Shown in pieces: positions 54,947-61,074 of a DNA stretch of 64,000 nt. The first letter of the stretch is position 1, and each line of letters starts with the position of its first letter. Both the position numbers and the translations under genes were made by a program. The notes below the pieces were generated by a model. It was not told the DNA's origin. It did no database searches and saw only the letters and a list, made by a program, of their open reading frames with translations. The stretch comes from Bacteroidota bacterium (lineage in GTDB: Bacteria > Bacteroidota > Bacteroidia > Flavobacteriales_D > Crocinitomicaceae): NCBI GenBank assembly GCA_006226425.1, contig SBGX01000011.1:124001-188000 (forward strand). The letters are read 5' to 3'.

Positions 54947-56143
54947 ATGTCTACAAAATCAAGTAAAGGAAGCCGGATCATTCCCCTGATAATGGGAATC
55001 ATGATAGCTCTTTCCACTTATGCTCAGGAAACGATCCGTTTGGGAGATCAGATCTGGATGAAGAAGAACCTGGATACCCAAAAATTCAGAAATGGAGACC
55101 AAATTCGTTTGTGTCGGAATCGGGATGAATGGAAGCAGGCGATGAAAAATCGCGAGCCGGCTTGTTGCTATTACAATTTTGAGGCTGAAATGGGACTCAA
55201 ATACGGAATGATTTACAACGTATTTGTCTTGTTGGATGATCGCGAGTTGGCCCCTCAAAACTACAAACTACCAGATGGCGATGACTGGATGACTCTGGTG
55301 AATACCATTCAGGGAAGTTCAGATAAATTGAATGTCGGAAATCGCATCAAATCGACAGGAGGTTGGACCGAAATGTTGGAAAGAACCGAAGCTTCTTCTG
55401 GCTTTGAAGCCCTACCAGGAGGTTATTGCTCAAAGGGAGGTTACTGCATGAACGAAGGAAAAGGAGCCGATTTTTGGGTGGACGGATGGCGTTCCGCAGG
55501 TCGTCAGCGATTGTTTCGACTGTACAGTGATTACGCCCATTATCAAATGGTCACAGAAAACGCTCCGGGAGGTTATTATATCCGTTGTCTGATGGATCAG
55601 GAATCTCCGAAGTACAAGGAAATCACACTTGGATTCTTTGAAACCAAAGACTTTTATGTGACCTCTCACAATCTGGATGCAACGAGGTATCAAAATGGCG
55701 ATGAGATCCCGCAAGCGACGGATTCCGCTTCCTGGGAACGATATGCTGAGCAGAGAGTGGGGGCCTGGTGCTATTTGAATTTCAATGAGGAGAATGGGAA
55801 AAAGTATGGGAAGATGTATAATGTTTACGCCATCAATGATGCGCGTGGAATATTGCCGACAGGTTGGACGATCCCGACTAAGAAAGAATATAACAGTTTG
55901 ACCTACGATCCGGATTTCATCGATCACCTGATGGAACAGCAGGGAGGAGCTTATGAAATGGACGAGAAATTCACCACAGAAAAGACCTCTTTTTGGAGAA
56001 GGAAGGATAAAAAGAAGAAGAAGGCCGTTTATTTCATTGTTTATCCAGATAGTTCGTATTCCATTGCTTTTACCACAGCGAAAAACATTGGCTGCTATGT
56101 ACGTGCAATTAAAAAAATAGAGAGAGAAGATGAAGACAAATAA
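54947..56143 (+). CDS. secreted protein with two FISUMP domains
   Basis: A 398-residue protein with a signal peptide (about 1-26, ending LSTYAQ) and two copies of the FISUMP (Fibrobacter succinogenes major paralogous) domain. The first copy is about 27-220, the second about 222-390. Each starts with a LGDQIWMKKNLD- or FYVTSHNLDATRYQNGDE-type segment, then a CYYNFE- or CYLNFN-containing segment, KYGMIYN or KYGKMYN, and a GYYIRC or CYVRAI end. FISUMP proteins are extracellular or surface proteins of unknown function. The second copy has a Lys-rich insertion. Its end overlaps the WG-Hint gene by 14 bases. Confidence 0.85.
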   Translation: MSTKSSKGSRIIPLIMGIMIALSTYAQETIRLGDQIWMKKNLDTQKFRNGDQIRLCRNRDEWKQAMKNREPACCYYNFEAEMGLKYGMIYNVFVLLDDRELAPQNYKLPDGDDWMTLVNTIQGSSDKLNVGNRIKSTGGWTEMLERTEASSGFEALPGGYCSKGGYCMNEGKGADFWVDGWRSAGRQRLFRLYSDYAHYQMVTENAPGGYYIRCLMDQESPKYKEITLGFFETKDFYVTSHNLDATRYQNGDEIPQATDSASWERYAEQRVGAWCYLNFNEENGKKYGKMYNVYAINDARGILPTGWTIPTKKEYNSLTYDPDFIDHLMEQQGGAYEMDEKFTTEKTSFWRRKDKKKKKAVYFIVYPDSSYSIAFTTAKNIGCYVRAIKKIEREDEDK

Positions 56144-57662
56144 AATTTGGGGACTTTTATTAGTGCTCGTTTCCTTTGTCCATTTCGGAAATGGACAGGA
56201 TTTGTTCCCTGTATTCAAGGGGCATAATAGTGGAAAACATGGATACATAGACAATCAGGGGGAATTGAAAATTCCATTTAAGTACGCTTCGGCCGGACAT
56301 TTTCAGGAGGGCCTGGCGGTGGTTTCCACGGATTACGGAAAATCAGGGTACATTCGGAAAAATGGAACGTACGCGATCCCGGAAATTTATGACAAGGCGA
56401 ATCCTTTTGAGAATGGGTATGCACTAGTCAAAAAGGGAGATCAGTATCTGATCATCGATCAAGACGGTGAAGAATACCTGATCCCTAATTTGCCGAGAAG
56501 TTATGAAGTAGAAGTGTCGGACAAAGGTTTGTTGGAGATTAAGGTGAATCGCCATTCCGGTTTTGTGAACCTGAAAAACGAAGTGGTCATTCCGGCCATC
56601 TATTTGGAAGCCGGACCTTTTAAAAATGGGTGGTCAATTGCCAAAAAAGATTCGCAATTCGGGGATGTTTATGTGGCTTTGACGCGAAGCGGGAAAGAAG
56701 TTCCTCTGGAAGGGGTTCAGTCTGCCCGCGATTTTAGCGGAGGTTTGCTTGCAGTTCGGAACAAAGACCGTAAATGGGGCTTCATGAACGAAGACCTCGA
56801 ACTGGTGATTGACTATCAATTCAAAGAAGTGGGGGATTTTCACCACGGATATGCAGTATTTCACGAAGGAAAGAAAAAGGGATATATTAATGATCGTGGC
56901 GTGAAAGTCGTTCCGGCAAAGTATAGGCAAGCACAGGATTTTAGTGACGGAAGAGGGGTTGTCCTGACAGACGAATACGATGCGGTGATTTTTGATCAGG
57001 ATCTGAAAGAGATTGCCCGCTTTGAAGACATTGCTGAAGGGGTCACAAGGAACTTTTCTTATCACAATGGAATTTGCATGTTGCATTTGGCAACGAAGCC
57101 AAATCCTCGCTCCAAAGATCCACTTATTCGCGATTGGGGAGGGGTGATTACCATTTGTATCAACAAAGAAGGAAAGATCATTTGGAAGAGTGATGAATGG
57201 TACTCGTGCTTTCCGGGAGATGCGCTCGTTCGCATGGGTGATGGTGGTAGCCGAGCTATTTCTAAATTGGAAGCAGGTGACCTGATCCTGACTTTTGATC
57301 CGCTAAGTGAAACGGAAAAACAGGTTTCTTTAAATGCCTTGCAGGTGCATGAGGGAACATTTGAAATTCTGGAAATCAGTTTTGAGGCGACGACCAATAT
57401 GTATGCTGGTCTCGAGCACGGCATTTTGAATGCCCCACTTCGGGTCACGCCAAATCACCCGGTAATGACTTCTGAAGGAGTTCGGGAGGCTGGAACGTTG
57501 CGTCCGCAGGACTGGGTATATTGCTACAACGAACTCAATGGGCAACTGGAAAAGAGACAGGTTTTACATGTTGCCAGAGCTCCAGGTCAGCAAAAGGTGT
57601 ATAATCTGGACCTCGACGCCGACTTCTATTTTGTAGAGGGCATGTTGGTCAAGCGAAAATAA
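56130..57662 (+). CDS. secreted WG-repeat protein with C-terminal Hint domain
   Basis: A 510-residue protein with a signal peptide (about 1-23, ending FGNGQ). At least five WG repeats follow (about 35-290); examples are HGYIDNQGELKIPFKY, SGFVNLKNEVVIPAIY and KGYINDRGVKVVPAKY. The C-terminal 151 residues form a Hint domain: Cys360 in the CFPGDALVRM start, GDLILTFDP, and a block B TPNHPV with T440 and H443. These align with the catalytic Cys, Thr and His of hedgehog/intein autoprocessing domains. The protein ends after YFVEGMLVKRK without an intein-type C-terminal His-Asn, so cleavage without splicing is expected. It overlaps the FISUMP gene by 14 bases. Confidence 0.88.
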   Translation: MKTNKIWGLLLVLVSFVHFGNGQDLFPVFKGHNSGKHGYIDNQGELKIPFKYASAGHFQEGLAVVSTDYGKSGYIRKNGTYAIPEIYDKANPFENGYALVKKGDQYLIIDQDGEEYLIPNLPRSYEVEVSDKGLLEIKVNRHSGFVNLKNEVVIPAIYLEAGPFKNGWSIAKKDSQFGDVYVALTRSGKEVPLEGVQSARDFSGGLLAVRNKDRKWGFMNEDLELVIDYQFKEVGDFHHGYAVFHEGKKKGYINDRGVKVVPAKYRQAQDFSDGRGVVLTDEYDAVIFDQDLKEIARFEDIAEGVTRNFSYHNGICMLHLATKPNPRSKDPLIRDWGGVITICINKEGKIIWKSDEWYSCFPGDALVRMGDGGSRAISKLEAGDLILTFDPLSETEKQVSLNALQVHEGTFEILEISFEATTNMYAGLEHGILNAPLRVTPNHPVMTSEGVREAGTLRPQDWVYCYNELNGQLEKRQVLHVARAPGQQKVYNLDLDADFYFVEGMLVKRK

Positions 57663-57672
57663 GAGTTTAAAA

Positions 57673-60600
57673 TCAGGCTTTTTCCAGGCTGATTCGCGCG
57701 TCATTGTCTTCCAGGAGATTGACATCCAGTGCGGTCTCTCCGAGCATACCGAAGCTGATTTCGGAGGCCAAGACCTCATTGCTGACATAATCCATGTTCT
57801 GGGCGATCGCGTTTCTGATCTCTTCCCCGGAATCAATGGTTAAGCGGATGCGGTCGGTCACCTCCAATCCGGAGTCTTTTCGAAGATTTTGAACGCGGTT
57901 CACCAGTTCCCGGGCAATTCCCTCTTGTTTGAGATCTTCCGTGATTGTAATATCCAGGGCAACCGTGATGCCTCCTTCTGAAGCGACGAGCCATCCGGGA
58001 ATATCCTGAGCACTGATCTCAAAATCGTTCATGTCCAGTTCGATCTGTACACCATCAACTTCTCCCTGCCAACCACCACGACTTTCCACCTGGGTGATGT
58101 CATCCTGACTAAAGGACTGAACGAGGGAGGCGATGGATTTCATCTGCTTACCGTACTTGGGACCAATCGTTTTGAAATTGGGTTTGATCTGTTTAACCAA
58201 GCGGTCATTTCCCGGTTGTAAAATCTCAATCTCTTTGACATTGACCTCGGACCGAATCAGCTGATCCACATGGGTGAGGTTTTGCTCAAATTCAGCATTT
58301 AAGGCAGGAACCATTACTTTTTGCAAAGGCTGACGGACCCGCAGTTTTTCCTTTTTCCGAAGTCCCAGTACGAGGGAGGAAACCCGTTGTGCGATTTGCA
58401 TTTGATCTTCCAGTTGGTGATCGATCAGAGCTTCATTACTTTTTGGGAAAACGGCCAGGTGAACAGAGTCCACATCGTGTCGTTGACTCACTGAATTCAA
58501 ATCCCTGAACAGGCGATCCATATAAAAAGGTGCGATCGGGGAGGCTAAAATGGAAACACTTTCCAGACACAAATACAATGTTTGGTAAGCCGAAATTTTA
58601 TCCTGACTATAATCTCCCTTCCAGAAACGACGGCGACACAAACGAACGTACCAATTGGAGAGCTGATCATTGACGAACTCCTGAATCAACCTTCCCGCAC
58701 GGGTGGGCTCGTATTGTTCATAAGCTTCTTCGACCTGTTTGATCAGGCTATTTAATTTGGAGAGAATCCAACGATCAATTTCAGGTCGTTGATCCAGCGC
58801 AATATCTTCTTCCCGATAGTTGAATCCATCGATATTCGCGTACAAGGCGTAGAAAGCATAGGTGTTGTAGAGCGTTCCAAAAAATTTCCGTTGTACTTCG
58901 ACGATGCCTTCCGAGTCAAATTTCAGGTTGTCCCAGGGTTGGGCATTTGTGATCATGTACCAGCGCGTGGCATCCGGACCATATTTGGCAATGGTCTCAA
59001 AGGGATCAACAGCATTTCCAAGTCTTTTGGACATCTTCTGTCCATTTTTGTCCAGAACGAGCCCGTTGGAAACGACATTTTTGTATGCGACCGAATCAAA
59101 GATCAGGGTGGAAATGGTGTGCAAAGTATAGAACCATCCACGTGTTTGATCTACTCCCTCGGCAATAAAGTCCGCAGGATAGGATTTATTCTGTTCGATT
59201 AATTCTTTGTTCTCAAAAGGATAGTGCCATTGGGCATAGGGCATCGAACCTGAATCAAACCAGACGTCGATCAGGTCGGCTTCTCTTCTCATAGCTTTCC
59301 CGGAATCAGATACAAGAATGATCTCATCCATGTAGCTTTTGTGGAAATCAACGCGGGCATAGTTTTCTTTAGACATATCTCCCACGACGAAGTCGGCCAA
59401 CGGGTTTTTGTCCATTAATCCAGCTTGAACAGCTTTTTCACAAGCTGCTTTCAAATCTTCCGCGGAAGAAATGCAAATTTGTTCGCTTCGGTCTTCGGTG
59501 GACCAGATCGGAATCGGAATTCCCCAATATCGTGAACGGGAAAGGTTCCAGTCATTCACGTTTTCGAGCCATTTTCCGAAACGACCTGTTCCGGTAGATT
59601 CCGGTTTCCAGTTAATTTGTTTATTCAGTTCGATCAGGCGATCCTTTTTGGCAGTCACCCGGATAAACCATGAATCCAGGGGGTAGTACAAGACAGGCTT
59701 GTCCGTTCTCCAGCAGTGTGGATAGCTGTGTTCGTATTTCTCAACTTTGAAGGCCCGGTTTTCTTCTTTCAGTTTGATGGCGATTTGCACATCCACCGAT
59801 TTTTCCGGGGCATCCTCCTCGGCGTAGTATTCGTTTTTCACGTACATTCCGGCGAATTCACCCATTTCAGGACGAAATCTACCTTGCAAATCAACCAGCG
59901 GAACAGGAGAACCCTGTTCATCGAGCACCAACATGGCAGGAACTCCTGCATCAGCGGCCACTTTGGCATCATCGGCCCCAAACGTCGGTGCGATGTGTAC
60001 AATACCGGTTCCGTCTTCTGTGGTCACAAAATCACCTGAAATCACCTGGAATGCTTTTTCTGCATTTTCATGTGGTTGGGCATACGGCAATAGCTGCTCA
60101 TAGCGAAGTCCGACAAGTTCCCTTCCGGTGCATTCTCCCAATACGAAGTAGGGGATTTTTTTGGCGCCAGCTTCATAACTCCCAAGTTCTTCCCTACTTT
60201 CTACAGCGTGGAATTGTTTTCCGAATTGGTAATTAAGAAGATCCTTCGCAAGAACCACCTGGATGGCTTCAAAAGTATACGGGTTGAAGGAGGCCACCTG
60301 AACATAAGAAATCTTGGGTCCCACGCACAAAGCTGTATTTGAGGGAAGGGTCCATGGCGTCGTCGTCCATGCCAAAAAGAAGTCGTTTTCGCCTGATGTA
60401 CCAAAAGGTCCGTTTTGTCCTTCTTTGATTTTGAACTGGGCAACCACCGTTGTGTCCTTGACATCCCGGTAACAACCCGGTTGATTCAATTCATGAGAAG
60501 AAAGTCCTGTTCCGGCAGCCGGAGAATAGGGTTGAATGGTATATCCCTTGTACATCAGGTCTTTCTTGTATAGTTGGGAGAGTAACCACCAGACGGATTC

Positions 60601-61074
60601 CATGTATTTCGAATCGTAGGTGATGTATGGGTTTTCTTTGTCTACCCAGTAGCCCATTTTTTCGGTGAGGTCATTCCAAACATCGGTGTAACGCATCACC
60701 GCTTCCCGACAGGCCTGGTTGTAATCGTGGATCGAAATTTTACTTCCGATATCTTCCTTGGTAATCCCCAATTCCTTCTCTACACCCAATTCTACTGGTA
60801 AACCATGAGTGTCCCATCCAGCTTTTCGGTGTACCTGAAAGCCTTGTAGCGTCTTGTAGCGACAAAAAATATCTTTGAGGGCCCGGGCCAGTACATGGTG
60901 AATCCCGGGAAGACCATTCGCAGAGGGAGGTCCTTCGAAAAAGACGAATCCCTTGTTTCCTTCTCTTGACAGAATGGATTGATCAAAGGTTTTTTCTCCT
61001 TCCCAGACAGCTTGCATATCCTGTGCAACACCTGCCAGATCAAGTCCTTTATATTCGTTGTAAGTTGTGGCCAT
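57673..61074 (-). CDS. ileS: isoleucyl-tRNA synthetase, type 2 with GxHH motif
   Basis: IleRS charges tRNA-Ile and edits valine. The 1133-residue length and general style fit the eukaryotic-like type 2 enzymes. The class I HIGH motif is replaced by G57-I58-H59-H60 in NGLPGIHHVL, while the second signature KMSKR (680-684) is intact. The editing domain, with GWDTHGLPVE upstream and TTPWTLPSN, is present. From memory of published work, the GxHH form occurs in IleRS2 enzymes with very high mupirocin resistance. Start ATG 61074 follows AGGT and a canonical promoter. Confidence 0.97.
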   Translation of the reverse strand: MATTYNEYKGLDLAGVAQDMQAVWEGEKTFDQSILSREGNKGFVFFEGPPSANGLPGIHHVLARALKDIFCRYKTLQGFQVHRKAGWDTHGLPVELGVEKELGITKEDIGSKISIHDYNQACREAVMRYTDVWNDLTEKMGYWVDKENPYITYDSKYMESVWWLLSQLYKKDLMYKGYTIQPYSPAAGTGLSSHELNQPGCYRDVKDTTVVAQFKIKEGQNGPFGTSGENDFFLAWTTTPWTLPSNTALCVGPKISYVQVASFNPYTFEAIQVVLAKDLLNYQFGKQFHAVESREELGSYEAGAKKIPYFVLGECTGRELVGLRYEQLLPYAQPHENAEKAFQVISGDFVTTEDGTGIVHIAPTFGADDAKVAADAGVPAMLVLDEQGSPVPLVDLQGRFRPEMGEFAGMYVKNEYYAEEDAPEKSVDVQIAIKLKEENRAFKVEKYEHSYPHCWRTDKPVLYYPLDSWFIRVTAKKDRLIELNKQINWKPESTGTGRFGKWLENVNDWNLSRSRYWGIPIPIWSTEDRSEQICISSAEDLKAACEKAVQAGLMDKNPLADFVVGDMSKENYARVDFHKSYMDEIILVSDSGKAMRREADLIDVWFDSGSMPYAQWHYPFENKELIEQNKSYPADFIAEGVDQTRGWFYTLHTISTLIFDSVAYKNVVSNGLVLDKNGQKMSKRLGNAVDPFETIAKYGPDATRWYMITNAQPWDNLKFDSEGIVEVQRKFFGTLYNTYAFYALYANIDGFNYREEDIALDQRPEIDRWILSKLNSLIKQVEEAYEQYEPTRAGRLIQEFVNDQLSNWYVRLCRRRFWKGDYSQDKISAYQTLYLCLESVSILASPIAPFYMDRLFRDLNSVSQRHDVDSVHLAVFPKSNEALIDHQLEDQMQIAQRVSSLVLGLRKKEKLRVRQPLQKVMVPALNAEFEQNLTHVDQLIRSEVNVKEIEILQPGNDRLVKQIKPNFKTIGPKYGKQMKSIASLVQSFSQDDITQVESRGGWQGEVDGVQIELDMNDFEISAQDIPGWLVASEGGITVALDITITEDLKQEGIARELVNRVQNLRKDSGLEVTDRIRLTIDSGEEIRNAIAQNMDYVSNEVLASEISFGMLGETALDVNLLEDNDARISLEKA

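Follow-up and report, generated by a model that had tools for sequence, protein, structure and literature searches.

The closest described relatives of the protein discussed here are the Hint domains of hedgehog proteins, inteins, BILs and polymorphic toxins. In the excerpted part of PMC3482391, HINT is described as a peptidase located just before polymorphic toxins. BIL and Hog domains possessing the residues of the first catalytic step are reported to cut N-terminally in the available passages of PMC7765530 and PMC7664689. The general base of hedgehog is Asp46 (Asp303), and the Asp303His variant of Drosophila Hh retains activity with a broadened range of substrates according to the available portion of PMC9163320, while an active-site Asp or His is given as a mark of Hog-Hints in the passages at hand of one review (PMC7765530). 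In Tetrahymena BIL2, His48 binds zinc together with His125 at a site away from the catalytic centre, as stated in the excerpts of PMC9200820 and PMC8616854. Bacterial Hints situated at the end of the chain are also found in the available text of PMC2362128, and the terminal position alone is therefore not new. The protein described in the following sections, WG-Hint, is encoded in the window, i.e., the whole 64,000-nucleotide stretch of DNA that was analysed. It ends directly at its Hint with a lysine, a feature which it shares with a wider family.

The WG-Hint gene and the fold of its C-terminal domain

The features of the gene and of its upstream partner are collected in Table 1.

Table 1. 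Features of the WG-Hint gene and the adjoining FISUMP gene, in window positions
Feature	Position	Strand	Remarks	Basis
WG-Hint gene	56130..57662	+	510 aa, ends TAA	ORF and Pfam
Putative Sec signal peptide	56130..56195	+	Residues 1-22, MKTNKIWGLLLVLVSFVHFGNGQ	By eye from sequence
WG-repeat part	56196..57206	+	Residues 23-359, five Pfam WG stretches	Pfam
Hint domain	57207..57659	+	Residues 360-510	Pfam, fold model, structure matches
Cys360 (Cys1)	57207..57209	+	Predicted nucleophile, 31/31 Lys-ended rows	
His407 (His48)	57348..57350	+	Extra His, area of hedgehog Asp46, 29/31	
Thr440-Pro-Asn-His443	57447..57458	+	TxxH of block B; T 29/31, H 31/31	
Lys510	57657..57659	+	Terminal Lys at intein +1 position, 31/31	Superposition and alignment
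Double FISUMP partner gene	54947..56143	+	Putatively exported (by eye)	Fib_succ_major

The upstream gene matches Fib_succ_major over two stretches (Pfam, E 9.9e-44), and its 3' end overlaps the start of the WG-Hint gene by 14 bases (56130-56143), which agrees with the FISUMP partner named in the first-pass annotation. The at least five WG repeats counted there are recovered by Pfam as five stretches of WG_beta_rep (E 8.4e-39). The Hint comprises 151 residues and ends in GMLVKRK followed by the stop codon, with no His-Asn. A gap of 10 bases separates the WG-Hint stop (57662) from the stop (57673) of a gene on the opposite strand (57673-61074), which we take by eye to be isoleucyl-tRNA synthetase. 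No cargo fits behind the Hint in this gap, and the earlier observation that nothing follows the domain is firm. When the contigs of the same genome were searched with the whole protein, one relative was found, matching through the WG part only.

Among the Pfam Hint models, PF01079 fits the protein best. The whole protein scores 28.6 bits (E 1.3e-6) against a cut-off of 29.7, the last 170 residues alone score 32.5 bits, and a six-frame search of the genome gives 29.7 bits, flagged as over the cut-off; the alignment spans only positions 10-134 of the 213 in the model. The PT-HINT model PF07591, in contrast, yields no Pfam row at E<=1 for the protein. In the same genome PF07591 matches on another contig only (C22, a 4125-residue frame), and since this genome is the only one of 99 to match, the PF07591 census is useless as a control. 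The AlphaFold2 model of the Hint, built from 23 aligned sequences, has a mean pLDDT of 90.6 and a pTM of 0.82. Foldseek searches with this model place Tetrahymena BIL2 first (E 4.1e-10) and also retrieve inteins and hedgehog. VIA-align gives Z values of ~20 to inteins and hedgehog (1at0/6tyy); with hedgehog 1at0 the Z is 20.4 and the rmsd 1.6 over 136 residues, with model residues 21-171 (Cys360 to Lys510) placed on residues 258-401. The C-terminal domain is thus confirmed as a Hint of the hedgehog/intein fold, the profile and the confident model agreeing on the domain that had been proposed for residues 360-510. The superposition further implies that Cys360, Thr440 and His443 would cluster in the modelled structure.

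Orthologues reveal that these three residues are retained. Hint matches were obtained in four of 59 genomes, including the window's own; the match in G036 lies in an RHS-like protein that carries a Hint. A WG-Hint of 501 aa is present in G002, of the same genus, with a FISUMP gene directly upstream at a distance of 4 bases, and one of 541 aa in G045, of the same order and another family that is covered by G045 alone, again with a FISUMP gene directly upstream, 7 bases apart. For the fourth WG-Hint (L055, genome G081; Pfam WG E 1.3e-31), the 15 kb examined contain no FISUMP gene. The scan of 182 loci contains these four distinct WG-Hint proteins and no others. FISUMP genes adjoin three of the four and, within the 182 loci, occur beside the WG branch only, which bears out the suggested pairing. 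Matches listed without a locus are left out of these counts (e.g., 7 extra rows of the 395-genome class sample). Over the full length, two orthologues are 37 and 25% identical to the window protein. The three fully aligned WG-Hints all have Cys360, Thr440 and His443, and so does the fourth; the residues first assigned to the catalytic places are therefore conserved in all four WG-Hint proteins. Identity to G002 is 38.8% in the WG part and 35.8% in the Hint, and identity to G045 is 25.2% and 25.3%, respectively. Judged from these values, neither of the two parts has diverged faster than the other.

A wider family of Hints ending in lysine

The Lys-ended family is defined by an ORF that stops 0-1 residue after the lysine at +1, together with Cys1, TxxH and the extra His. 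Counts refer to 31 distinct intact rows in which the frame ends 0-1 residue past the last profile column. Two L121 pieces were left out (their Hint is broken by a stop and they belong to the same gene as in L142), L153 is a 32nd fitting row outside the count, and L087 was retained though its His-Asn is still present. By these sequence features the window protein falls within the family. The first-pass interpretation had recognized the terminal Hint and the residues of the first step, but it overlooked the wider family and the invariant lysine as a candidate acceptor.

Cys1, Phe2, Gly24, His84, Pro85 and the terminal Lys are each invariant in 31/31 rows. Asp25 (30), His48 (29) and Thr81 (29) are nearly so; Thr81 gives way to Ala in L031 and to Ser in L087; L087 and also L089 lack the extra His. 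The position of the C-terminal His of inteins holds His in 1/31 rows and that of the Asn holds Asn in 5/31. Residue -1 is Ile in 15 rows, Phe in 4, Tyr in 4, Ser in 2, Val in 2 and one of four others once each. Many of the proteins look exported by eye.

A maximum-likelihood tree was built from 70 rows, all of them closed frames with at least 110 aligned columns; L104 and L115 were left out. A branch supported at 96/95 separates thirty Lys-ended Hints from the other rows, although the bootstrap of this tree is unsettled and several branches are long. L087, which ends in His-Asn-Lys, lies between the two sides, and all 31 are held together at 99/97. Because of this ending, we infer an order of events in which the +1 Lys would have come first and His-Asn been lost later. 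Those HN-type Hints that have long downstream parts are placed across the tree from the Lys-ended Hints. The placement bears on the possibility that the window's Hint releases a downstream toxin, as polymorphic-toxin Hints do. The genome does encode such a Hint in the 4125-residue frame noted above, but with no cargo in the 10 bases behind the domain, no PF07591 match and the long-tailed HN-type Hints across the tree, this reading is extremely unlikely. Toxin release at this locus is refuted unless the cargo is encoded elsewhere.

The genome census covers the window's phylum. With Hint profiles built from these sequences, matches were obtained in 24 of the 399 genomes sampled from the order, in 31 of 395 from the class, in 18 of 395 from the phylum and in 32 of 244 from a second class, as well as in 19 of 151 and 3 of 39 genomes of two families. 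There is some overlap between the samples, and inteins and toxin-type Hints are among the matches. The independent Pfam model PF01079 matches 10 of 198 genomes of the phylum. Three of these, one of them the genome of the window, exceed the curated cut-off, and their matching Hints are all Lys-ended. A plasmid search returned one record, a Streptomyces HINT toxin-type protein, and a phage search gave no match.

The commonest Lys-ended proteins are ~330 aa long (21 of the 31 counted rows, together with L121 and L153). All 23 loci of this branch contain a HisC-like class I/II aminotransferase, and 22 contain a flavin amine oxidase in one stretch with the aminotransferase and the Hint; the exception, G587, has no amine oxidase in the 13 kb examined. 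Both enzymes start with putative twin-arginine-like signals, by eye, in the loci inspected. Among related Hints there are fusions to YARHG, to F5/8-type and to unknown domains. The variety of fusion partners points to the Hint as a module used with several N-domains.

A conserved His is found 46-48 residues into the Hint in 28/31 rows and 41 residues in one (L048). The offset is 48 in the window protein, 46 in L016 and L021, and 47 in L030-L032; the offsets of 46 and 47 go with a shorter hairpin before the His. To lessen circularity, the His48 column was masked before a new search, and the number of frames matched was unchanged at 145 (78 distinct). In the strict column of the masked search, the His is absent from 15/15 HN-type Hints with a closed frame and at least 94 residues behind the domain. 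A His does align at this place in two of those 15 (L094 and L099) when the unmasked profile is used, and the extra His is also carried by L017 and L049, HN-type Hints whose tails are short. Overall, the His marks terminal or near-terminal Hints and not the loss of His-Asn as such. The His is also present in an in-between group that ends in Gly-Thr/Val-Glu plus a short tail (MAFFT, 23/23 rows of A4), where in several rows the masked model displaces it by some two columns. Its role in the window protein, where it is His407, may be that of a general base, a metal ligand or a structural residue. A zinc switch of the BIL2 type was rejected; the second ligand, His125 of BIL2, is absent and aligns to the Asn492 column, which holds Asn in 27/31 Lys-ended rows.

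Proposed cleavage and the fate of the thioester

Since the first-step residues are kept and those of C-terminal cleavage are gone, N-terminal cleavage is the natural inference. Cys1 and His84 in 31/31 rows and Thr81 in 29/31 form the pattern that retained first-step chemistry would leave. The most probable reading is that an N-S acyl shift would take place at Ser359-Cys360 outside the cytoplasm, by analogy with hedgehog and BIL domains, and would free or transfer the WG part. By calculation, a cut before Cys360 would divide residues 23-510 (54.9 kDa) into parts of 38.1 and 16.8 kDa. WG-Hint would be exported, putatively to the periplasm or the surface. The Hint would then convert the peptide bond between Ser359 and Cys360 into a thioester. 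With His-Asn gone and nothing following the domain, resolution of the thioester would be the only productive outcome, and it would free the WG part (residues 23-359) or pass it to an acceptor. Water or a small external nucleophile is tentatively proposed as the acceptor.

WG-Hint is rare, with four distinct proteins among 182 loci, the -1 residue is variable, unlike a strict junction, and L031, L087 and L089 lack the full residue set; these observations weigh against the proposed cleavage. They overlap with the grounds for its main rival, a decayed or purely structural Hint in which the fold is kept for binding or capping and no chemistry takes place. Such a domain would fit the loss of His-Asn, the variable -1 residue and the few members without Thr81 or the extra His. 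The catalytic columns are nevertheless conserved at the above counts across several families and two classes, and at a mean column identity of ~29% in the 23-row alignment this conservation exceeds structural need, which leaves the structural reading rather unlikely.

It is very unlikely that the WG part is passed on to a lipid or a sterol-like alcohol as in hedgehog. In favour of this reading, no other Pfam Hint model scores better than PF01079, the superposition on hedgehog covers 136 residues, and the His that the family has in the area of Asp46 recalls the Asp303His variant of Hh, which is active with wider substrates (PMC9163320, available portion). The window protein, however, has no sterol-recognition region, its chain ends at the Hint, PF01079 is aligned over 10-134 of 213 positions, and the aligned His48 of BIL2 binds zinc away from the catalytic centre in the excerpt of PMC9200820. 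In profile and sequence searches of solved structures no hedgehog chain was among the best five rows listed, and His48 is accordingly no more than a candidate for the spatial place of Asp46. Of the hedgehog-like mechanism suggested at first, N-terminal cleavage remains probable, while the likeness does not extend to a sterol region or to Asp in the Asp46 area, where a His is found.

The terminal lysine offers another acceptor for the predicted thioester. According to VIA, model residue 171 (Lys510) superposes on residue 144 of BIL2 (entry title N143A), on 146 of MchDnaB (entry title N145AA), on 441 of the RecA mini-intein and on 199 of GyrA; sister entries of the latter two place residue 170 on 440 and 198. 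The exception is 6zgq (title N146A), in which 171 is placed on 150 rather than 147. These ranges put Lys510 at the position of the intein +1 nucleophile. As a sub-case of the proposed cleavage, its side-chain amine could attack the Cys360 thioester and form an isopeptide, giving a branched protein in which the WG part hangs on the C-terminus of the Hint instead of the N-terminus. The chain ends at this Lys or one residue later in 31/31 rows, a constancy equal to that of Cys1, and the same holds for L153; in the His-Asn-Lys end of L087 the Lys stands one residue beyond the Asn position. An isopeptide bond to a lysine is described for BIL2 in the excerpt of PMC8616854, but that lysine is part of the next domain and not at +1, and the literature excerpts consulted mention no natural intein in which a +1 Lys is productive. 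The 6zgq mapping is at odds with a +1 position, and 16 of the 23 profile rows end in the same Lys, so that its constancy is counted within a family chosen partly by likeness. The lysine may alternatively be structural, or gate Cys1 in the way ascribed to hedgehog Cys143 in the available text of PMC8529194. Lys510 as a built-in acceptor is accordingly a doubtful proposal.

A broader conjecture, likewise improbable, would make these proteins a distinct bacterial Hint class, in which the terminal Lys resolves the Cys1 thioester, or activates a small amine, so that the N-domain would be hung on the C-terminus by an isopeptide in an ATP-free ligation outside the cytoplasm. The aminotransferase and the flavin amine oxidase of the dominant branch, both with putative Tat-type signals, would then make or alter the amine.

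Comparison with known systems

If active, the Lys-ended Hints would give a bacterial group, by its gene content probably the Bacteroidota, a hedgehog-like means to cut or tether exported proteins without protease, sortase or ATP, in the form of a compact 150-residue module terminating at its own active site. In the titles and the beginnings of abstracts searched, a set outside of which most subscription journals fall, there is no description of WG-Hint, of Lys-ended Hints or of the three-gene unit. The fixed terminal Lys makes thioester resolution testable in a terminal Hint that has no C-extein. The Lys-ended Hints are candidate ligation modules for protein engineering, and the conserved aminotransferase/amine oxidase/Hint unit is a starting point for tracing an amine pathway outside the cytoplasm.

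WG-Hint is filed under neither hedgehog nor BIL, as the sterol region and the His-Asn of type A are both absent. PT-HINT has the same fold and first-step residues. It precedes a toxin and keeps His-Asn, whereas nothing follows the domain here. Compared with inteins, WG-Hint ends in Lys-Arg-Lys-stop and lacks the C-terminal His-Asn, a Cys/Ser/Thr at +1 and a C-extein. The terminal Hint-like proteins of Myxococcus, Serratia and others (Buerglin 2008; Dassa and Pietrokovski) are also C-terminal, and some have signal peptides, according to the available text of PMC2362128. By the description given there, the Myxococcus/Serratia type shares two upstream Cys and would thereby be set apart, no such Cys being invariant in the three aligned WG-Hints.

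The hedgehog Hint (1at0, 6tyy; PF01079) resembles WG-Hint in its position on the C-terminal side, in having the N-side protein as the product, and in Cys1-TxxH. WG-Hint differs from it in the absence of a sterol-recognition region and a Hedge domain, in the His located in the Asp46 area, and in the terminal Lys by the Cys143/400 position. BILs of types A and B are bacterial as well, N-terminal cleavage is reported for BILs, and type B has no intein C-terminal motif, in the passages at hand of PMC7765530. Type A ends in His-Asn, which WG-Hint does not have, and a terminal Lys is not described in these BIL passages. Tetrahymena BIL2 (BUBL locus; 6tmm, 6y75) provides the best profile match (E 2.8e-12) as well as the best Foldseek match, with His48 aligned. 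It differs in its ubiquitin-like flanks, in Asn143, and in the zinc ligand His125, the counterpart of the Asn492 column. BIL2 is also described, in the excerpt of PMC8616854, as handing over the protein on its N-side through an isopeptide bond to a lysine, which lies in the domain that follows.

The three-gene unit of oxidase, aminotransferase and Hint protein

A flavin amine oxidase, a HisC-like aminotransferase and a 330-aa Hint protein of the Lys-ended family, in which the open frame stops 0-1 residue after a fixed lysine at the intein +1 position, constitute a conserved unit. The aminotransferase is found near the 330-aa Hint in 23/23 loci and the oxidase in 22/23, and both enzymes carry twin-arginine-like starts in the loci where these were read.

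One member of the 330-aa family, in genome G1137 (L121, L142), is disrupted by an in-frame stop within the Hint domain; the adjacent aminotransferase and oxidase retain full-length frames.

Features located in the source genome (G000; C, contig) and in compared genomes (L, locus)
Feature	Location	Remark
Three-gene unit	L057 3127-6995; L059, L060, L061, L062, L136-L149, L181, others	
Gly-Thr/Val-Glu Hint group	L018-L020, L022-L024, L027, L033, L086, L088, L090	
PT-HINT match	G000:C22:49554-52934 (L001)	sole match in own genome
Further FISUMP-like stretch, first of two	G000:C1:26892-27455	
Further FISUMP-like stretch, second of two	G000:C12:129147-129719	internal TAG

Other Hint termini

A second group of near-terminal Hints lacks His-Asn and ends in Gly-Thr/Val-Glu followed by a short tail. 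Among the domains on the N-terminal side of these proteins are YARHG, in L065 (the L018 locus), and, in L072 (the L027 locus), an F5/8-type NADase_transloc domain.

The PT-HINT match of the source genome lies in an open frame of 4125 residues, in which His-Asn is present and 94 residues separate the last aligned Hint column from the stop.

The frame of the G1023 Hint protein (L087, L150) terminates at His-Asn-Lys. This Hint is positioned between the Lys-ended family and the remaining Hints, and is possibly an intermediate.
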